Shown: positions 3,065 to 61,264 of the stretch, piece by piece | Numbering within the stretch: the first letter of the stretch is position 1 | Layout: the number at the start of each line of letters is the position of its first letter | Source: Rhyzopertha dominica | Lineage: Eukaryota; Arthropoda; Insecta; Coleoptera; Bostrichidae | Length of the DNA: 64,000 bases | Direction: 5' to 3' | Assembly: GCA_025024175.1 (NCBI GenBank) | Contig: QCXZ01000064.1 | Coordinates: 49,745,325-49,809,324, forward strand | Translations under genes and position numbers: made by a program | The notes under the pieces: model-generated | Told to the model about the DNA's origin: nothing | The model's database searches: none | The model's input: the letters and a program-made list of their open reading frames with translations, nothing else

Positions 3065-3103
3065 CATACAAATTAGACAAGATGAAACTATTTCATTCGC
3101 CTG

Positions 3104-3158
3104 GGTCAATCTACTCTGACCCTCCGACTGGTTTCGCCCTGTTGCGGTTCATCAGTTA
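3104..3158 (-). ncRNA. Hammerhead ribozyme, copy 1 (degenerate)
   Basis: On the minus strand CUGAUGA (3155-3149) is followed by a poorly paired stem II (ACCGCAACAGGGC), GAAA, a short stem III region and GUC. Relative to copies 2 and 3, about 30 nt that should form the upstream strand of stem I are deleted. The core residues survive but folding should be poor, so it is probably inactive. Confidence 0.6.
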
Positions 3159-3347
3159 GTTCGCCTTAACCGCGGTGTGCGGAATGGGTATGCAAGAAAG
3201 CTAATGCCCTCAGTGCTGCCATCTAAGCGGAACTCTGAGCTAGGCGGTCTATAACTGCGATAGACGACGACCTGGTGCAGGTTCCTGTCGATGGCATCGG
3301 AGCAAATCTACATATTTTAATCAAGATGAAATTATTTCATCTGTCCC

Positions 3348-3422
3348 GGTCAATCCACTCTGATCCTACGACTAGTTTCGCCCAGATGGGGCTCATCAGG
3401 TAGGGGTACAGAGTAAATTAAC
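3348..3422 (-). ncRNA. Type I hammerhead ribozyme, copy 2 (best preserved)
   Basis: All core elements are visible on the minus strand: CUGAUGA, stem II GCCC-CAUCU-GGGC, GAAA, a minimal self-complementary stem III CUAG, then the cleavage triplet GUC. Stem I pairs CCUAC with GUAGG next to the core. After a small internal loop it continues with CUCUG against CAGAG and an outer AU-rich helix ending GGUC-type. The internal loop in stem I opposite loop II is where tertiary contacts occur in natural type I hammerheads. Predicted cleavage is between 3369 and 3370. The palindromic stem III suggests activity is favoured in dimeric or multimeric transcripts, as expected for tandem units. Confidence 0.88.
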
Positions 3423-3603
3423 AAAAGCAGATTGTCCGCGACTGGCGGAATGGGTTTGAAAGAGAGCTAATGCCATCTAAGCGGAACCCTGCGAGCTAGG
3501 CGGTCTATAAGTGTGACAGACAACGACCCAGTGCAGGTTCCTATCGATGACATCGGAGAAAATCTACATATTTTAAGCAAGATGAAATTATTTCATCTGC
3601 CCC

Positions 3604-3678
3604 GGTCCTTCCACTCTTACTCTACGACTAGTTTCGCCCTGTTGGGGCTCATCAGGTAGGGGTGCAGAGTAAATTGAC
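3604..3678 (-). ncRNA. Type I hammerhead ribozyme, copy 3
   Basis: The core is intact: CUGAUGA, stem II GCCC-CAACA-GGGC, GAAA, CUAG, GUC. Stem I begins CUAC/GUAG and extends outward through CUCU/AGAG-type pairing with some mismatches. Predicted cleavage is between 3625 and 3626, 256 nt from the copy 2 site, which defines the monomer length. Confidence 0.86.
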
Positions 3679-3827
3679 CAAAGCAGACTGTCCACCTTAA
3701 TCGCGACGTGCGGAATGGGTATGCAAGAAAGCTAATGCCCTCAGTGCCATATAAGCGAAGCTCTGTGAGCTAGGCGGTCTGTAACTATATATAGATAGAC
3801 CCAGTGCAGGCAGGCTTTGTCTGCTTT

Positions 3828-3903
3828 GATCAATTTACTCTGTTCCTCAACCTGATGAGCCCCAACAGGGGGAAACTAGTCGTAGGAGCAGTGTGAATTA
3901 ACC
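3828..3903 (+). ncRNA. Type I hammerhead ribozyme, inverted copy 4
   Basis: The core is on the plus strand: CTGATGA at 3852-3858, stem II CCC(C)-AACA-GGGG, GAAA at 3872-3875, CTAG, GTC, with predicted cleavage between 3881 and 3882. The stem II closing pair is mismatched (G-G) and the first pairs of stem I (CTCAAC against GTAGGAG) are imperfect, so activity is likely reduced. Its opposite orientation makes the array end in an inverted repeat. Confidence 0.78.
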
Positions 3904-4070
3904 GGGGCAGATGAAATAATTTCATCTTGCCTAATATATGGAGAGTTTCTCCGATGCCATCGAGAGGAATCTGCACTAGGTCGTCTTCTATCGTAGTCAT
4001 ATATCGCCTAGTGCGCAGAGTTCCGCTTAGATTGCACTGAGAGCATTAGCTCTCCTGCATACAAATTAGA

Positions 4071-17970: not shown

Positions 17971-18055
17971 GCCAGCCTTCACCGAGATTTGAACTCGGGG
18001 CACTAGTCAAATGCTCTACCACTGAGCTATCATAATCATAATCGAACTTTGATGT
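17971..18055 (-). repeat. tRNA-like (SINE-head) sequence, left arm
   Basis: The minus strand carries a Pol III box A-like stretch (TAGCTCAGTGGTAGAGC) and a box B-like stretch (GAGTTCAAATCTCGG), ending TGAAGGC. The anticodon arm is shortened, so it is not a functional tRNA. It is the inverted partner of 19127-19225. Confidence 0.6.
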
Positions 18056-18521
18056 ATACAGGGTCCGCCACCTAAAACTCCCCAGGCTCGTGTTTTCTTT
18101 GTTTTTTTTTTAGGTACAACCTTAAGTTATATATCAAATTGTAGGTCTTTTTTAACTCTATAACAATAGCATAGTGAGGGTCAAAAATTTTTTTTGAAGA
18201 TTGTGATATTTTGCAAATAAAGCTAATTTTTGTAAATATTTTTTAACCTTACCCCGTATAATAAATATTGCTTCATAGTTGGATGCCAATTTTTGTCTTC
18301 TTCAATTTGTGTCATTACCATGTATGCGTAATTTTTACTCCTTTTTAGTGAAAAACAAGAAAAACTAGTCGCCGTTATGTTCTGTTATAGGGCTGTTCAC
18401 AATTTTTTGTGTTAGTTTAGTAGGTTATTATGATACAAATTATGCCTACATACCCATCGCTGCACACAAAACCCCAAAATTTTGAGTAACTTTTAAATGA
18501 ATCAAGTACAAAGTTCGTTCT

Positions 18522-18523
<2 letters not shown>

Positions 18524-18560
<37 letters not shown>
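18524..18560. repeat. (GA)n microsatellite
   Basis: About 18 AG dinucleotides close to the centre of the palindrome. The right arm has no equivalent tract, so the run expanded after the arms were formed. Confidence 0.9.
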
Positions 18561-18561
<1 letters not shown>

Positions 18562-19126
18562 GCTAGAAAGCGAAACCCTGCGATGAGGTTAGTTTGGTTT
18601 TCTACATCGCATACTAGCCTCGTCACAGGGTTTCATTTCCTAACCTCTATCTCTTTAGAACGAACTTTGTACTTGATTTATTTAAAAGTTACTTAAAATC
18701 TTGNGGTTTTGTGTGCAGCGATGAGTATGTAGGCACAATTTGTACNGTAATAAGCTACTATACTAACACTCAAAAATTCCGAACGACCCTATTTTAAGAA
18801 CATGGCGGAGACCAGTTTTTCATGTTTTTCACTAAGAAGGAGTAAAAATTACGCATACATGGTAATGACACAAATGGAAGAAGACAAAAGTCGGCATTCA
18901 ACTGTGAAACAATATTTATCATACGAGGTAAGGTTAAAAAATATTTACAAAAACTAACTTTAAATACAAAACATGATAATATGCAAAAAATTTTTTGAAC
19001 ACCCACCAAGCTATCTTTAAAGAGTTTAAAAAGACCTACAATTTGACATATAACATAAAGTTCTACGTCAAAAGATAAAGAAAATACGAGCCTGGGGAGT
19101 TTTGGGTGGCGGGACCCTGTATATGC

Positions 19127-19225
19127 CACCTTGACCTCGATTATGAATACGGCTCTGATATCTCAGTGATAGAGCGTTTGACTAGTGTCCAAAAGGTCCC
19201 GAGTTCAAACCTCGGTCAAGGCTGG
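19127..19225 (+). repeat. tRNA-like (SINE-head) sequence, right arm
   Basis: Box A-like TATCTCAGTGATAGAGC and box B-like GAGTTCAAACCTCGG are followed by TCAAGGC. The 5' sequence ACCTTGA can pair with TCAAGG as an acceptor-like stem but is separated from the D arm by some 20 extra bases, which argues against a working tRNA. It is the same family as 32044-32138. Confidence 0.6.
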
Positions 19226-19672
19226 CCTGTTAACCCATTAAAATATCATCGACAAAATTAAAACAAATATGTAACGAACATTGTGCAAGTTGGATAATTT
19301 ATGCTACGGCGAGTAGTTTATTATATGGCTGTCAGCAATTTAGCTACACATTCCAGCTACATACATAGTCGCTGCTCCTAATTAGACATTATTTGTCGTA
19401 GAGTGGTACACCTTTTTTATCCTCGTAATAGAAGGCAATCGCCTGTGCGTTCAGCCAATTCTGTACGCTAGTCTGCAGCTTGTTTGTGTCCTCTTAGCTA
19501 GCGTTTCACGTGAGCATAGAGATGATAAACAGAAAGAGCCGAAGTGTTGGAAGGTGATCAAACTCTTCTCTATAAGCCTCTTGTTTTCCTTTACATCTAA
19601 TCAAGTTCTTTAATTCTCCTGTGTCCAAAAATGGAAATTTACACTTCCGGTATCGGAATCGTGGTATATGTA

Positions 19673-23208: not shown

Positions 23209-23384
23209 TTCTGATAGTAGGCTGTGAGAAAAAATGTGTAAGCCGTATTTGTGAAACTGACCTAATTTATTAGTTTCTGTTNTATTTGTCCGTTTTGTAT
23301 TGCGTTGTTACTACTTCTTTTGACTAGCTTAAATTATGAACTCGTGTTTATTTTTGCAGGTTTAGGATCCTAATTGTTTAAATT

Positions 23385-25075
23385 AAACAAGCTTTGTGGT
23401 CATATAACGTTTCGATCTTCTATTTAGATCTTTTTCAAATATTATAGTTTTATATTATAACTGATCAATTGACATTAAATTTACAATAATATAAAATGTA
23501 CCTTGGAGTTTGTTCCATCGCCATCGCTATAATTACTTAAATAGCAAATGTTAAAGTATGAGTGTTTGTTATTGTGATATTGTGTTTGTATGTTTCAATG
23601 ATAGTGTTGTAGGTGTTACTCAGTCATTGTACTTCTGTACTGTCGTTTATAAATGTGCTTATGTTTTTAATATATGCATCATTTCCAAAAATTGTCTTTT
23701 ACGTTTATGTGGTTCTGTAGCAATAATTTTGGTGTTTTCGAAGTGTGATTAGTTAGTTGTTCATGTTTTTTCAAAGCAGTTTACTTGTTATTATTTTAAT
23801 GTTGTAGTATCCTGTTTTTTTAGGTATTGTCCCATTTGTCCGATATATTGTTTGTTGAAAGGTTAATTTTTGTGTTTATTGTTTTAGTATGTTTTTTTAT
23901 TTTTTTTGTGTATGTAAGGGGTGAAATGTATGGTAGGGATAAGATATTGCATGATGTACAGTTTTTCTGTTTGTTGTTGTAGGGTAATTGTTATTTATTC
24001 GTATTTTAGTTATTATGTGCAAACTTTCATTTCTAATTTCTGGACTAATTAATTTTATTACTCGGTGTATTGTATTGTTAAAGATAGCTAGTTTTTGTTT
24101 GTAGGGGTGGTCAGACTGATAATTTAAGAATCTTCCTGATGCCGTTGGTTTTGAATACCATCTTGTGATAATTTTGCTATTCTTTTTAATCAGTGTGAGG
24201 TCAATATAGTTAATTTTGTTGTTCTTCTCTGTTTCTATGATATTCTGGTATTATTAAAAACAGATCATCTACATATGTTGTATATAGCTTTATGCAATTT
24301 ACCTTGTTTGTTACTGTTGTTTCTAAATCTTCCATTATCAATTGCGCTGTGCTGCTTGAGATCTGTTTTATCTGTTTATAGAAGTTATTTTAAAATTGAA
24401 AAACAATTTGTAGGTAAATAATGTGAAGTTTAATGCTTTTATAAATTCTGTTTTCAAGATATTTGTATATTGTTATAATTTATGCCAATTTTTTGCGGTA
24501 ATAGGTTCTATCAATGTTATTGATATGCTTGTGTAAAGAGAAATTACGTTCTTAGAAATCATTAATTGGTTATGTATAAATATTGGAAATTTTGTTTAAA
24601 AATTCAAGAGTTAAATTGTTTGCCAGGTTGTATGTTGGTGTTTGTATATTATTTATTATAAATCCAAGAGGGAGGTTGGGTTTGTGTATCTTCGGCTGTT
24701 CGTAAATTTTGGGTGGTAAAGCGTTATTTATTATAAGCCTATATGATGTTTCGTTTGATATATATTGTTGCTTTTTCAAATTTTGTGTCGTTTTTACGAT
24801 GTGTGGCGTTTGCAATGTTGTTTTTTATTATATTGTATGTTGTTTTGTCATTTAATAGATCATACCTTTTCTGTTCATATGATTTTCTGTCCATAACTAA
24901 TGTCATGTCGGATTTATCAAGTATTAGTGTAGTGATTTGAGGGTTGGTTTTGATAAAAGTTTTAGTTGTTTTATATTATATTGTTGGCTTCTTAGTCTGA
25001 TGGCTGTTCTTGTTCTGCTTTATTTTGTTTTTGTAAGCTGTTAAAGTGCACGTTTGAAGTTATGGATCTGCATCT
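23385..25075 (-). pseudogene. Decayed Penelope-like element
   Basis: It is colinear with the full PLE at 42241-44773. From high to low coordinates: NNALPPKIYEQPKIHKP near 24725-24680 (RT), a degraded YVDD region near 24270, and NKQYIGQMGQYL near 23860-23820 (the GIY-YIG endonuclease). At 23403-23440 there is the terminal motif GAAAAAGATCT..AGATCGAAACGTTA. Frameshifts and deletions are scattered throughout, including loss around the palm region. It is older than the copy at 42241. Confidence 0.85.
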
Positions 25076-32043: not shown

Positions 32044-32138
32044 GCTTTGACCTCGAATCTGAATATGGTTTTGGTAATGGAGTAAGAGCATATTTGACTA
32101 ACAATCAAAAGGTCTCGGGTTCGATTCCCGGTCAAAGC
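32044..32138 (+). repeat. tRNA-derived SINE-like sequence
   Basis: GCTTTGACC and GGTCAAAGC form a perfect 9-bp closing stem. Inside are a D-arm-like TGGTAATGGAGTAAGAGCA, an anticodon arm TTTGA-CTAACAA-TCAAA (anticodon AAC by position) and a T arm with box B GGGTTCGATTCCC. Some 16-20 extra bases between acceptor and D arm depart from a normal tRNA. It is the best preserved of the three related copies (also 17971 and 19127). Confidence 0.6.
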
Positions 32139-32952
32139 TCTTCCGACGTCCCTGAACATCGGTTACTAAAAACACAACCCGATTAAAAAACAACGTCCTC
32201 TAAGTTTTATACAAAACTGCAAACTGTTAAATCCTAGCTACGTATTCGATTTGTAATGCGGTTCATCATAATCATACCCTAGATTGTTGATACAAATAGG
32301 TACATCACTTTGCTCCATCTTCTGAATTATTCTCTATATTTGTTTAGGCTTAGACAAAAATAGCAAAAATACATTCAGCTCTGCAAAAATCGGTTTAGCT
32401 ACAATGAGTGTCACGCAAACACATTGTACGCGAGGAAATTGGCTGATGGGAAGATTAATCTTTAATTTTTTAGTAGTAATGGAAGAAAAACTAAAAAGTG
32501 CACTGTGTTGCACTTGATTTTCTTGAAACAGTTGCATAAGCCTGACACTTTTGTAAAACCGCTCTCCTGTTCAAATAAATGAAATGTAGCATGTTAATTA
32601 GTTAAATCAATATCAAGCTAGTACAAGAAGACTACAGTCAGTCCAAATTTGTGAAAATAACCGTTACCGTGCAGACGTATAATCTGCTCTCTCATATGAT
32701 ACATTTGTAAAGCGAAAAAACCGCTAGATCCTGAATATAAACAACCTTTTTTATCGTATAGAGAAAGAATAAGGTCAGGTAATACCAAGCCTTTGGTATA
32801 TAGGCAAAACCAGTTCTATGTCGTGCTGTCTGCACTAGACCTAAACTGCACTGATGTGCTATAATGAAAGCGAAGTAGATCTATTTGCAGTTGGTTGTGG
32901 TGTACACAGCACATCATAGACATGCATTTTAAGATATTACAAGCTTAGTCTA
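32139..32952. other. No supported feature
   Basis: AT-rich DNA up to the left end of the SAM-domain element. TGTGGTGTACAC at 32887-32898 is the inverse of a sequence just at the right end of that element and may belong to it. Confidence 0.4.
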
Positions 32953-33545: not shown

Positions 33546-34880
33546 GTAAGTTACAATGTTTTTGTTTTAAAATGATACGATTAAAGTAGGTGCCATGTGC
33601 CATGTATGAAACGCATTTACCCATCAGAACCGGTGCGCAATTGCCAACGCGTGTCGAAGTATTAGGTATTAAATAATTATGGTTTAGTAATAATAGTATA
33701 AATTCATGATTCACCTACAAACATTTGTAACATCATTTTATTAAATATGCTCTTGTCTTAACTTTCATCAATATTCTCATTCTAACGTTCTATGTCAACT
33801 GTAAAGGCACAGACTATATATATGTAATTTTAAATCCTACAGATGCATAACTATTACTAGGTTAAATATACAAAATAAGCGGAGCAACTCATTGTATATA
33901 TACATACCAATTTATAGGTATTACTTGTACTTGTACTTAAATTCATGTGTGAATGTTTTTTAGGATTCTTACTAAAACATGAGTGCACTTTTCGCAATGA
34001 CGTAAAAGACAACAAGAGGTAGCACAAACTAGGGAGTTGGAGTAATAAAATGTGACGGCCGCCATATTGAGAAGCAACTTTCCATAATTTTTGTTCCGTC
34101 AAATTCTGTGAAGCCGTTTTGCTGGTGTCTGAAAAGTTATGTTGCATTAACAATTTTTGGAATAGGTAATATAAGTGTTTACATATTAGGTTTGAAATTG
34201 TATTCTGTTAAAAATAGATATTTTGTTCNANTAAATATATTTTATATTATTTTATCCGGTATGTTGGACAACGGTGAATTTAAAGTTATATAATGACAAC
34301 AGTTTCCCTAAGTACTTGTAGTCTTGAGGAAGCTGCTAAATAAATAAGTAGTAAAACTGTTGGCATAATATAACTCTTCACTATTGTCCAACATACCCGA
34401 TAAAATTATATAAAATATATCCAGTGGAACAATCAATCTACATGTATACATAATATAATAATAATAATCAAACCTGGAATATAAACACATATTACAAAAA
34501 TTTTAAACAAACATAACGTTTCTGATACGTGCAAAGTGGCTCACAGACTCTGACCGAACAAAAACTGAGGAAAGTGACCTCTCAAAATAATATATAATAA
34601 TTTAAAACGGTTGATGATTAAATATTATAATTTACAGTTGTAGTTTAAAATAGATTGTGTTACCTACTTTCGGTTAAAGCAAATTTACTTATAAAATGCC
34701 TTTTGTGAAGAATTCTATCTTTACATCGTGCATGATATCATTAACACAAATCACAAAAAAAACCAGTAGTAACAGCGATATGTCGTAGGCATATTCATTT
34801 TTTATCATTCAGTATAAATCAAGAAAATTAACGAAGATTTATCTTATGTAAAAATAATTGTTACTCTTTGATTTACACAG

Positions 34881-42227: not shown

Positions 42228-42304
42228 TATACTCTATAAATTTTTCTTATAGTATTTATTTGTAGGTTCTGGCTCCTTATTTTTATAAATTAAAGACACT
42301 TTCT

Positions 42305-42350
42305 TTAATAATATGACGTTTCGACCTATAATTTAGGTCTTTGTCGANTA
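42305..42350 (-). ncRNA. Hammerhead-like motif at the PLE 3' end (degenerate)
   Basis: The minus strand reads TCGACAAA, a perfect stem GACCTA-AATTA-TAGGTC, GAAAC, then GTC. Stem II, GAAA and the GUC cleavage triplet match a hammerhead, but the CUGANGA box is replaced by a CGACAAA-like sequence and one base is ambiguous. It is probably inactive or a derived form of the hammerhead known from PLE termini. The inverted 5' copy at 44641 lacks the upstream half. Confidence 0.4.
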
Positions 42351-42378
42351 TTTTATTTAGTAGATCGAGAGGGTGTGT

Positions 42379-44052
42379 TTANATGACGGTGTAGTAGGTA
42401 TTACTTNGTCCTTGTATGTCAGTCCTGTCGTTTACACATGTGTTTAGGTTTTTTTGAATATGTNTCATTTCTAAAAATTGTCTTTTTTGTTTATGTTGTT
42501 CCGTAGTAATAATTTTGGTATTATCAAAGTCAAAAGAGTGGTCAGTTTGTTCTTGATGTTTTTTTAAAGCTGTGTAGTTGTTATTATTTTTATGTTGTTG
42601 TAGTCTGTTTTTTAAGTATTGTCCTGTCTGTCCTATATATTGTTTGTTACATTCTTTACATTTTATACTGTATATTGTGTGTGTTCTTGTTTCTTTTGGT
42701 ATTTTTGTTTTTAACGGTGTGTAGAATTGTTTAATTGTGTTAACTGGTTTATATGTGATTAGGAAGTTATGTGGTTTTAGTAGGTTTTTTATTTTTTGAG
42801 TGAGTGGTGGTATATATGGTAAGGTTAAGTATGTTATGTTTGTGTTTTTGTCTTGTTTTTCGTATTGAATACTATTGTATAATTTTTCTGTTTGTTGTTT
42901 TATTGAGTTACTTATTAATTTAGTGGGGTAGTTGTTATTTTTTAGTATTTTAGTAGTGGTATGTAAAGTTTCAATTCTAAGTTCTGGACTAGTTAATTTT
43001 ATTATTCGTTGTATAGTGTTGTTTAGGACAGCTATTTTTTGTCTGTAGGGGTGGTTAGAATGGTAATTTAGTAGTCTTCCCGATGCAGTTGGTTTTGAAT
43101 ACCATTTTGTGAGAATTTTGTTATCTTTTTTAATTAGTGTAAGGTCTAGATAGTTAATTGTGTTTTTCTTTTCTGTTTCTACGGTAAATTGTAATTTTGG
43201 ATGATAACTATTAAACAAATTTAAAATTTCGTTTACTTTGTCTCTTGGTATTATTAAGAATAGATCATCTACATATCTTGTATAAAATTGTATATAATTT
43301 ATTTTGTTTGTTATTGTTATTTCTAGATCTTCCATTATTATTTGTGCTATATTGCTTGAGATGGGTGATCCCATTGCTACCCCATCTATTTGTTTGTAAT
43401 AGTTGTTCTTAAATTGGAAATAATTTGAAAATAATGTAAAATTTAGTGCTTTTATAAATTCTGTTTTTGGGATATTTGTATATTGTTCTATTTCTTGCCA
43501 ATTTTTTGTGATAATTGATTCTATTAATGTTATTGGTATATTAGCATAAAGAGAAATTACATCTAGAGAAATCATAATGTGATTATTAGGAATATATATG
43601 TTGGATATTTTGTTTTTAAATTCGAAAGAGTTTTTAATATAAAATTGGTTTTTATTAATAATGTTTTTTAAAATACTGTTCAAGAATTTTGCCAGGTTGT
43701 ATGTTGGTGATTGTATGTTGTTTATTATAGGTCTGAGAGGGATATTTGGTTTGTGTATCTTTGGTTGTCCGTATATTTTTGGGGGTAAAGCATTATATAT
43801 TATAAGTTTATATGTTATTTCGTTAGATATATATTGCTGTTTTTTCCAATATTGTATCATTTTGTTGTTTTTACGTTGTGTGGTGTTCGTGATGTCGTTT
43901 TTAATTATGTTGTATATTGTTTTGTCATTTAATAGGTCATGCATTTTTTGTTCATATGATATTGTGTCCATAATTAGAGTCATGTTAGATTTATCAGGTT
44001 TTAATATAGTGATTTGTGGGTTGTTTTTAATGAAAGTTTTGGTTTTTTTCAT
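42379..44052 (-). CDS. PLE polyprotein: reverse transcriptase + GIY-YIG endonuclease
   Basis: Counting from the Met at 44052: GQPKIHKPNIPLRPIINN (about 95-112), SLDVISLYANIP (162-173, palm Asp164), GVAMGSPISS (224-233) and YVDDLFLI (260-267, catalytic Asp262-Asp263) are the RT. HTIYSIKCKECNKQYIGQTG (458-477) then QYLKNRLQQHK are the GIY-YIG endonuclease with the Cys pair typical of Penelope proteins. The stop TAA is at 42381-42379. The same frame stays open upstream without any ATG to about 44667, adding about 205 codons of Asn/Lys-rich N-terminus. The true protein is therefore probably about 760 residues, and either begins at a non-AUG codon or the original start is lost. Two ambiguous bases fall near the C-terminus. 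The frame is otherwise intact. Confidence 0.9.
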   Translation of the reverse strand: MKKTKTFIKNNPQITILKPDKSNMTLIMDTISYEQKMHDLLNDKTIYNIIKNDITNTTQRKNNKMIQYWKKQQYISNEITYKLIIYNALPPKIYGQPKIHKPNIPLRPIINNIQSPTYNLAKFLNSILKNIINKNQFYIKNSFEFKNKISNIYIPNNHIMISLDVISLYANIPITLIESIITKNWQEIEQYTNIPKTEFIKALNFTLFSNYFQFKNNYYKQIDGVAMGSPISSNIAQIIMEDLEITITNKINYIQFYTRYVDDLFLIIPRDKVNEILNLFNSYHPKLQFTVETEKKNTINYLDLTLIKKDNKILTKWYSKPTASGRLLNYHSNHPYRQKIAVLNNTIQRIIKLTSPELRIETLHTTTKILKNNNYPTKLISNSIKQQTEKLYNSIQYEKQDKNTNITYLTLPYIPPLTQKIKNLLKPHNFLITYKPVNTIKQFYTPLKTKIPKETRTHTIYSIKCKECNKQYIGQTGQYLKNRLQQHKNNNNYTALKKHQEQTDHSFDFDNTKIITTEQHKQKRQFLEMXHIQKNLNTCVNDRTDIQGXSNTYYTVX

Positions 44053-44786
44053 TATATTGTTTATTGCCTTTGTCTTATGACTGTTCTGGTTTTGTTTTAT
44101 TTTGTTTTTGAAAGTTGTTAATGTGTATGTTAGTTTGTTGCGTATTGTATTAGTTTGTTCTGTCGGGAGGTGTTGTATTTGGTTTTCTATGTTAGCTATA
44201 ATATTGTGTATTGGAATTTGATGTGTTTGTGTAATAGGGATTGCATGTTTATGTCCTAGTGATAGTGTTTGTATAATGTCATTAGGTATTATTGTGTTAG
44301 ATATGTTTTTGATCCATTTATTAGTATCGTTTTTGGGATGATTGTTATTGTTTAGTTTTTCTTTTTGGTTTATAATTTTGTTTATTTTTTTGATATTTTT
44401 TGTTTTTATATTATTAAAGTGTTTTTTTAGTCCATTTATTTGGGTTTTGAAGAATGTGTCTAATTCATTTTTATTTATTGTTGTTTGAAGGATGTTTGTT
44501 ATGTAATTTAGTTCTTTTGTGTTGTTTTTTAATTGGAAGATGGTGTCCGTTATAAGTAAATTGATTATGGTATGGATGAATTTATTTGTATAGCGTTGGA
44601 ATTTTACTTTTAGGTACTTACAATTGAAAATTAGGTGTTCTAAATTATAGGTCGAAACGTCATATTATTAAAGAAAGTGTCTTTAATTTATAAAAATAAG
44701 GAGCCAGAACCTACAAATAAATACTATAAGAAAAATTAACACAAAAGGACTCCACAAAATAAACACCAACAACTATACTCTATAAA

Positions 44787-47177: not shown

Positions 47178-47271
47178 GCTGTGTTGTCTACATCAGAACA
47201 ATTCGAGGACAGCTGTTTCGATCTATTAGATCTCTTCAGCTCGGCTATAGTTCCAATGTAGACAACACAGC
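47178..47271 (-). ncRNA. Hammerhead ribozyme in a long hairpin, inside intron 1 of the 47487 gene
   Basis: Minus strand, outside to inside: a perfect 16-bp outer stem (47271-47256 with 47193-47178), an asymmetric internal loop, CGAG/CUCG next to the core, CUGAAGA, stem II GAUCU-AAU-AGAUC, GAAA, self-complementary stem III CAGCUG, then UC. Every invariant hammerhead position (CUGANGA, GAAA, UH) is present. Predicted cleavage is 3' of GUC, between 47208 and 47207. Stem I is open-ended, so it is type I. The stem I internal loop facing loop II is placed for the usual tertiary contact. It lies about 27 bp downstream of the donor of the exon 47487-47299 and in the same orientation, so it would be transcribed in the pre-mRNA. 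It could instead be a remnant of a retrozyme or PLE. Confidence 0.85.
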
Positions 47272-60150: not shown

Positions 60151-60490
60151 TAAAAATATCTGATGAAGAACGAAGATGTGGTTCATAGGCTACCAAAGGG
60201 CTTACACCAGACTTTTCAAAGATCCGTCGTCAGAAAAGAATAAAGAACACAAAAAACACACAAAAAGTCGCGGAGCGAAAGTCCTTGTCAAAAAATAAAT
60301 ATTCAATATGGCAGTAGAGCAGTTAAATAGTACTTTTTTATAATTATTCCTATACTGTCTTGTATTAGGAATAGATTGGGAACGCAGAAATACTTGAGGC
60401 ATTTCACCCGGGCTTACCCTACAAGTGACACTCAAAAACTTTAAACATTGCAGTTAAGGGTACACCAAAAGCAAGTGGAACATAAAAGAG
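60151..60490. other. Start of the exchanger's first intron, nothing else seen
   Basis: This lies downstream of the donor of the exchanger exon on the minus strand. No further exon was found within the window. Confidence 0.45.
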
Positions 60491-60497
60491 CTCTTAC

Positions 60498-61244
60498 CGT
60501 TGGCATGAGCTGATCGGTGCTCCTAACCCTCGTCACCCTGTTCTTATAGACTATCTTTTTAACCAGTCTCTCCATGGGCTGATTCCACTTCATGAAACTG
60601 ACGTAAGCCACGTAAAACGAGAACAGCACGAGCGCCTCGTACCAGTGTATGTAATTGTCCCTGAAGAAAATGATCAGCGTGATAAGACTGACCGAATAGA
60701 AGAAGCAGTCTCTGAACAGCGGCCACCAGGTGAGCGTGAGCACTGTTTTGGAGAAGAGCGCGCACATCCCTATGACGAACAGGATGTTGAACACGGCCGA
60801 TCCGACGATGGTGCCGATGCCGACGTCGTCGAAGGAGACGAACACGCCGATGACGCTGGTGAAGAGTTCCGGGGCTGAGCCTCCGGCGGCCATGAAGGTC
60901 GCCCCGGCCACATCGTCCTGGATGTCGAGCTTCTCGATGATGACGTCCAGGCTCGGGACGAAGAACTCGTCGCAGACGATGGCCAGCGCGACGAACATGT
61001 AGATGACCCCCAGAATGTGCAGGATGATGGCACCATTGCGGCGCTCGTCCTCCGTGAAGAGGTCCTTGGGGAAGAGCGGATCCGCCTTGTGGAAGGTGTG
61101 GTTGTGTGGGACGACGGTGTAATTGCCGAAGGTGACATTGTGGTCGATGAAGAACGCGGTGGTGAATTCCTCGTCGTCCTGGGGGGCGACCTGGCCCGTC
61201 AGCAGGGCCAGCAGCACGCAGAGAAGCGCGGCGCGGAGGGTCAT
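60498..61244 (-). CDS. K+-dependent Na+/Ca2+ exchanger (SLC24/NCKX family), first coding exon
   Basis: NCKX proteins export Ca2+ and K+ in exchange for Na+ across the plasma membrane. The 249 codons end in phase 0 at a GTAAGAG donor. Residues 1-20 are a signal peptide ([17 protein letters not shown]). N-glycosylation sites lie in the extracellular segment (NVT 36, NYT 41, NHT 48). The first membrane helix is about 72-92, and the alpha-1 ion-binding repeat spans about 112-162, with the signature [19 protein letters not shown] and [13 protein letters not shown]. Two to three more helices follow (about 165-220) before the cytoplasmic loop begins ([11 protein letters not shown]). The alpha-2 repeat must be in later exons outside the recognised sequence. 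The start at 61244 has a good context (GCCGCTATGACC). The exon is far richer in G+C than its surroundings. Confidence 0.96.
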
Positions 61245-61264
61245 AGCGGCAATTGGTCAATCAT
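61241..61264 (-). promoter_or_regulatory. Upstream ORF overlapping the exchanger start codon
   Basis: An ATG at 61264 opens the seven-residue ORF MIDQLPL, whose TGA overlaps the exchanger's ATG as ATGA. Such an overlap usually lowers translation of the main frame or makes it depend on re-initiation or leaky scanning. Confidence 0.6.

Follow-up and report, generated by a model that had tools for sequence, protein, structure and literature searches.

Head-to-head hammerhead retrozymes in Rhyzopertha dominica, probably inserted by twin priming

The window considered here is a stretch of 64,000 nucleotides of the Rhyzopertha dominica genome (contig QCXZ01000064.1, positions 49,745,325 to 49,809,324 of the forward strand), in which positions 3065-4070 are occupied by one insertion made of three head-to-tail hammerhead units on the minus strand and one inverted unit on the plus strand (Table 1). 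The array itself (3078-4057) is bracketed by an exact 13-bp target-site duplication, CATACAAATTAGA, and has a GC content of 48%, against 38% in the flanks. The predicted hammerhead cleavage sites of the minus-strand units, here called A, B and C, lie 244 and 256 nt apart, and the inverted fourth unit (218 nt) is 83% complementary to the direct ones. A first-pass annotation, made from the letters alone, had proposed a retrozyme-like insertion with a 13-bp duplication and three direct units plus an inverted one, and both proposals hold, the array, the cores, the exact repeat and the direct repeats at these spacings all being present. The strand of the "direct" units had to be corrected, as their hammerheads are on the minus strand. 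The direct units are only 72-79% identical when gaps are counted (up to 89% over 201 nt without gaps) and thus differ by 21-28% from one another, which marks the copy as old: it is a decayed member of a metazoan-type retrozyme family. All ORFs in 3065-4070 stay below 120 aa, so that none could encode a reverse transcriptase with a GIY-YIG endonuclease, and the retrozyme is non-autonomous.

Table 1. Positions in the window of the parts of the retrozyme insertion and of the two-armed Penelope-like element (PLE).
Feature	Position	Strand	Basis or remark
Left 13-bp target-site duplication	3065-3077	.	exact repeat, compared with mismatched end pairs
Unit A (244 nt), outermost direct unit	3078-3321	-	sense 3' end at 3078, an alpha-type terminus
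Hammerhead core of unit A, decayed	3126-3155	-	core pattern; outer stem I lost, by eye
Unit B (256 nt), complete	3322-3577	-	direct-repeat comparison
Hammerhead core of unit B	3370-3399	-	Hammerhead_HH9 match of 31.2 bits, below cut-off; predicted cut at 3' edge
Unit C, 5'-incomplete, end of minus arm	3578-3810	-	arm mapping
Hammerhead core of unit C	3626-3655	-	Rfam Hammerhead_1, 36.4 bits for 3620-3661
Arm junction, 8 nt outside both arms	3811-3818	.	arm mapping
Inverted unit, forming the plus arm	3819-4057	+	sense 3' end at 4057, a beta-type terminus
Hammerhead core of inverted unit, damaged	3852-3881	+	G-G clash at base of stem II, by eye
Right 13-bp target-site duplication	4058-4070	.	first bases CATAC, as in the unit beyond the beta site
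PLE copy, two-armed	42241-44773	-	minus arm with ORF 42379-44664; short inverted plus arm at about 44640-44773
PLE 13-bp target-site duplication, left	42228-42240	.	repeat at element ends
PLE 13-bp target-site duplication, right	44774-44786	.	repeat at element ends

A loose hammerhead core pattern matched the window 14 times, compared to 2.85 matches expected. The claim that each unit carries a type I hammerhead is supported as far as the four cores are concerned, but the units are unequally preserved: the gathering score of the Rfam family Hammerhead_1 (cut-off 34) was reached only in unit C, unit B and the inverted unit (23.2 bits) matched Hammerhead_HH9 well below its cut-off of 52, and unit A matched no Rfam family at E values up to 1. 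In the same line, units C and B align well to the hammerhead models, the covariance-model alignments containing no non-standard pair in unit C, two in unit B and several in the inverted unit, and damage is visible by eye in unit A and in the inverted unit. Just one full 256-nt monomer lies between two intact-looking hammerheads. The minimum-energy folds of B and C contain stems I and II with part of the core paired, so that these folds alone are no proof of a hammerhead. Elsewhere in the window, a solitary type I hammerhead-like motif on the minus strand (47202-47245; 33.1 bits for a cut-off of 34) lies within an imperfect inverted repeat with arms of 43 nt (47160-47202/47247-47289), whose pairing would give a very long stem I; the motif is absent among the window matches to the retrozyme array.

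The remainder of the window includes an exon of a Na/Ca-exchanger family gene on the minus strand (60441-61256; Pfam Na_Ca_ex, 4.2e-32), a tRNA-Val(AAC)-like sequence that is possibly a tRNA gene or the head of a SINE (32068-32140), and two palindromes. tRNA-like matches lie at both ends of the longer one (17971-19226, 1.26 kb, 78% identical to its own reverse complement), one of 42.6 bits (19152-19223) and a sub-threshold one on the opposite strand (17981-18030); the shorter one (34064-34588, 0.5 kb) is imperfect, at 71%.

Sister copies were searched for in the whole genome (479 Mb, 138 contigs). The whole array as query gave 206 matches, from the best 40 of 1283 candidate loci, and a single 277-nt unit from a young locus gave 152 matches, from the best 40 of 1196; besides, the hammerhead core with up to three mismatches was matched 695 times genome-wide (341 + 354), compared to none for a reversed-pattern control. 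Other genomic copies, as expected in the first-pass annotation, thus exist. Extraction of 40 + 19 loci yielded 58 distinct ones, including the window copy (L048, whose positions plus 675 are window positions); L024 was dropped from the counts as a repeat of L021 within a duplicated segment. With units of 244-277 nt, the family fits the description of dispersed, multi-copy, short tandem non-coding repeats of 150-450 bp. As the hairpin-rich unit makes plain nhmmer annotation mix the strands, the arms were annotated with sense-only and then with domain models.

With the domain models, 36 of the 58 loci read minus-then-plus, 17 minus only and 5 plus only, the order plus-then-minus being absent. 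The single-unit query holds one orientation only, and the sample drawn with it (the 39 distinct best loci) comprises 31 minus-then-plus, 7 minus-only, 1 plus-only and again no plus-then-minus loci. In every two-armed locus seen, the sense 3' ends point outward. Some of the loci counted as single-armed are ambiguous: L064 clearly has a very short second arm, L042 may carry one, and L014, L017, L019 and L058 have a duplication with no second arm visible. The inverted unit, which had been described as unusual, is therefore the usual structure of the family in this sample, head-to-head being the commonest form among the single-unit loci. It had also been proposed that a second, inverted insertion could account for it. 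Two independent insertions, an inversion through genomic recombination or a fold-back artefact of the assembly can indeed generate inverted repeats, and two loci of contig C14 (L033 and L045) look rearranged. However, such origins conflict with the polarity of 36 to 0, with outer ends that are fixed across many contigs, and with the single duplication that encloses both arms in the mapped loci where one was found, and are judged extremely improbable. The view that the whole composite arrived in one event is in turn upheld by its single 13-bp duplication, as found around the mapped sister loci.

A few loci carry additional sequence. The plus arms of L050 and L051 contain about 717 bp (~2057-2773) and 469 bp (~2214-2682) foreign to the unit model, at whose borders positions of the model recur, and these stretches look like later nested insertions. 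In the two-armed L033 (1546-2893), whose contig appears rearranged, the unit gives way in both arms, close to where the hammerhead would cut, to 284 nt of other sequence, which looks as though the end of a cleaved RNA had been joined by ligation to a second RNA prior to insertion; among the sequences extracted, this 284-nt stretch matches only its own contig.

The outer ends of the two-armed loci fall at two positions of the unit. The alpha site is at position 277/0 of the 277-nt unit, in ...CAGATTATTTATTTA, with ends observed from -4 to +6, and the beta site is at about 139, in ...CCTATTCTCCTTT, with ends observed from 130 to 146 (exactly 139 in 13 of 24), so that the two sites split the 277-nt circle into 139 + 138. 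One alpha and one beta outer end were found in all 24 loci mapped in detail, beta being on the left in 14 and alpha in 10, a result that independent 50:50 choices at the ends would yield with a probability of 0.5^24. These loci, L064 among them, were selected because they have two arms and a duplication, and where an end had more than three unaligned bases, its last 33 nt were aligned anew. The set accordingly omits loci without a duplication and one-armed loci other than L064. Two more were set aside because their second arm is tiny or unclear (L042, L044), one for its age (L048), one because its 8-bp repeat is displaced by 34 nt (L033), and two for a gap in the plus arm (L050, L051); of those omitted, L042, L048, L050 and L051 also read alpha plus beta, L042 weakly, and the window copy (L048) has alpha on the left and beta on the right. 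When all 36 two-armed loci are considered, 31 are alpha plus beta, L050 and L051 being counted among them only if the gap resembling a later insertion is bridged. The five exceptions are L022, with alpha at both ends and without a duplication; L033, from a messy contig, where the two ends coincide with the hammerhead cleavage site; and L045, L049 and L063, with one non-canonical end each.

The duplications were evaluated against mismatched end pairs. Under one uniform wide search rule, exact end repeats of at least 10 bp were found in 29 of 58 loci compared to 11 of 1200 mismatched pairs, and repeats of 13 bp in 22 of 58 compared to 7 of 1200; no repeat of 8 bp or more was found by this rule in 26 of the 58 loci. 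With the ends fixed within 4 nt, which is stricter than the search that found the duplications, none of 870 mismatched pairs reached 10 bp. The duplications measure 8-15 bp with a mode of 13 (30 loci), those of L036 and L066, both among the 24 mapped loci, being only 8 and 9 bp long and possibly due to chance. At ends without unaligned bases, the target matches the RNA beyond the alpha end over a mean of 1.76 nt (17 of 24 ends) compared to 0.29 when crossed with beta, and beyond the beta end over 0.92 nt (13 of 24 ends) compared to 0.35 when crossed; the window copy offers an example at its right duplication (Table 1). Such short matches are the expected trace of target priming with little pairing. 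In this context, the alpha and beta ends would correspond to the start sites of reverse transcription, one for each side of the insertion.

The junctions between the arms bear on another possible origin of the inverted arm, namely self-priming or template switching, in which the reverse transcriptase would fold back onto its own cDNA, or self-prime on antisense RNA, and copy in reverse. This process likewise predicts the head-to-head polarity, the units are hairpin-rich, and it has been proposed for the PLEs of the rotifer Adineta vaga on account of their palindromic junctions (PMC3846280). Here, however, the overlap between the two arms ranges from -22 to +9 nt in 20 of 22 loci, the outliers being L009 (81-nt gap) and L013 (91-nt overlap, with a hammerhead hairpin matching both strands), and their breakpoints fall at apparently unrelated positions of the unit (Kolmogorov-Smirnov test against uniform phases, p = 0.18, a low-power test on 21 of the 22 junction loci, L013 being left out and none of L049-L067 included). 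Fold-back copying predicts neighbouring breakpoints and should return to the site from which it started, whereas same-site ends were found in none of the 24 mapped loci, the far end lying at the second fixed site, beside the duplication. Self-priming could fit L022, with its two alpha ends, and the two-strand overlap of L013, but is considered quite unlikely for the family, and the template switching that had been suggested for the inverted unit is disfavoured by the scattered, non-palindromic junctions of the sister copies and by their single polarity.

The RNA that served as template would be dumbbell-shaped and perhaps circular. The young 277-nt unit (55% GC) folds as a circle at -115.8 kcal/mol, compared to -85.0 (sd 5.4) for shuffled sequences, into two large hairpin domains, one of which contains the hammerhead, separated by unpaired stretches or small hairpins; for unit B of the window (47% GC), the values are -80.6 and -60.1 (sd 4.4). 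Besides, the units of a locus resemble one another: the nearest relative lay in the same locus for 21.8 of 45 units (ties shared), compared to a mean of 0.78 and a maximum of 5.0 in 500 label shuffles, and a unit of the opposite arm was on average closer than 87% of the units of other loci (15 units, 7 loci), with the exception of L063, whose opposite arm is less similar than most units of other loci (32-37%). Counting against the insertion model given below, as does L063, private variants common to both arms are few, being found in three of the eight two-armed loci listed (one each in L029, L033 and L048) and in none of the ten other listed loci, five of which are single-armed. The similarity within loci fits a single RNA as template, such as a circle would provide, or several closely similar ones. 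A serious, if rather doubtful, alternative is that a genomic array was transcribed into a linear multimer which then served as template, a variant also compatible with twin priming. The transcript of the Anolis PLE is thought to be multimeric, with hammerhead cleavage dispensable in vitro (PMC11167929), and the divergence among the direct units of the window copy would suit such a template. Against it stand the greater similarity of units within than between loci, although a homogeneous array would look the same, and the accumulation of metazoan retrozymes as circles (PMC7229834).

The window also contains a two-armed PLE copy with a duplication of the same length (Table 1) and a 98-bp perfect inverted end, one side of which is 36 nt longer. 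Its ORF resembles PLE proteins, including an 857-aa protein of Drosophila virilis (34% identity over 94%), and some of the related PLE proteins carry PF01541; the ORF itself had no Pfam match at 0.001, and a PDB sequence search gave nothing useful. A genome search with the PLE gave 181 matches from the best 40 of 1054 candidate loci, several copies being visibly head-to-head among the matches listed. In all ten loci examined, which are no unbiased sample as seven were picked after the listing had revealed both kinds of ends, one side reaches the "tail" end whereas the opposite side is shorter by 22-35 nt, compared to 36 nt in the window copy; the duplications are 10-15 bp long in nine of them (by script) and 12-14 bp in the tenth (by eye). 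The examined PLE copies of this genome therefore have the same pattern as the retrozymes. Given this common head-to-head form and the rule of one start per side, PLEs are the likely source of the enzyme that inserts the retrozymes. No sequence common to PLE and retrozyme ends was seen. The 20 PLE ends examined (L068-L087) carry a GAAACGTC stretch preceded by a stem II-like hairpin, and as no CUGANGA core was seen by eye in them, a canonical hammerhead may be missing from the ends of this PLE family. A second PLE-like copy on the minus strand of the window (~23353-25054) is more diverged and apparently 5'-truncated, and no convincing target-site duplication was found around it.

Taken together, these data suggest that the feature at 3065-4070 is a non-autonomous retrozyme that was probably inserted by twin priming, likely through the reverse transcriptase and GIY-YIG endonuclease of a PLE. 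According to this model, the endonuclease would nick the target twice, about 13 nt apart, and each exposed 3' end would serve as primer for a cDNA copied from the retrozyme RNA, starting in one case at linker alpha, immediately past the hammerhead domain, and in the other at linker beta, immediately past the second hairpin domain. The RNA being a circle or a multimer, the two cDNAs could each reach up to several units, and they would then meet and be joined at an arbitrary point, leaving head-to-head arms with outward sense 3' ends and one duplication around the whole. In a more general form of the model, whose likelihood we consider evenly balanced, Penelope-type enzymes would insert retrozymes by an obligatory dual-site twin priming, in which a reverse transcriptase-endonuclease dimer would hold both linkers of a dumbbell-shaped circle and use one of its two start sites, half a circle apart, for each target strand, and head-to-head multimers would arise as a rule. 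Published data on PLEs point both ways. The purified Anolis enzyme (PAc), a predicted dimer, cuts both strands and extends them, with two internal start sites that delimit the tail; counting against the model, its start sites in vitro are the same for both strands and hammerhead cleavage is unnecessary for insertion (PMC11167929).

The same twin priming could also be driven by a LINE-type (non-LTR) retrotransposon instead of a PLE. In human L1, 18-22% of insertions have a 5' inversion, which is ascribed to twin priming, both target strands being thought to act as primers and the inverted 5' part lying, as here, inside one duplication (PMC12016303). The length of the duplication does not discriminate between the two enzymes, as the median in human L1 is likewise 13 bp (PMC12016303). 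Nevertheless, one L1 cDNA starts from poly(A) and the other has breakpoints distributed, with peaks, over the 3' part of the element (PMC12016303), whereas the retrozymes lack poly(A) at either end, both of their sites are fixed, and the two-armed form is in the majority (31 of 39 single-unit loci), as the PLE copies suggest for PLEs. A LINE is thus regarded as an unlikely driver.

If true, dual-site twin priming would explain both the mobility of animal retrozymes and the puzzling inverted pLTR and "tail" of PLEs, whose head-to-head structure, earlier ascribed to self-priming, finds in twin priming a simple reading. The dozens of copies with precise ends, duplications and two fixed start sites make the mechanism directly testable and tie it to PLEs. 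In the open-licence literature, no paper was found that combines retrozymes with head-to-head structures, and none was by its title on Penelope and twin priming, although the idea may be in print elsewhere; retrozyme and inverted repeat do co-occur in papers of that literature.

Compared to known systems, the family resembles the metazoan non-LTR retrozymes in its non-coding tandem units (~170-400 nt there), type I hammerhead, multiple copies, duplications longer than 4 bp when present (at least 10 bp in half of the loci here) and co-existence with PLEs, which are named there merely as a strong candidate for retrozyme mobilisation (PMC7229834, Cervera and de la Peña 2020). It departs from that account, whose main text does not contain the word "inverted", in the head-to-head arrangement with two fixed ends that prevails in the single-unit sample. 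The GC content of the young unit (55%) exceeds the <45-50% given for metazoan retrozymes (PMC7229834), and that of unit B (47%) falls between these two limits. The plant LTR retrozymes are more distant, with LTRs, PBS, PPT, a type III hammerhead and a 4-bp duplication, in contrast to the unit-length repeats, type I hammerhead and 13-bp duplication of the present copy. A structural parallel is with PLEs, for which an inverted pLTR, a mostly head-to-head arrangement and an optional tail are described as typical (PMC3846280): the retrozymes and the PLEs of A. vaga and Anolis (PMC3846280, PMC11167929) have in common direct repeats with an adjacent inverted one, mostly head-to-head, a short duplication, a "tail" on one inverted end and two start sites of reverse transcription. 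The retrozymes differ from them by units of ~277 nt without an RT/GIY-YIG ORF and by ends that are half a unit apart, compared to about 30-40 nt in PLEs.
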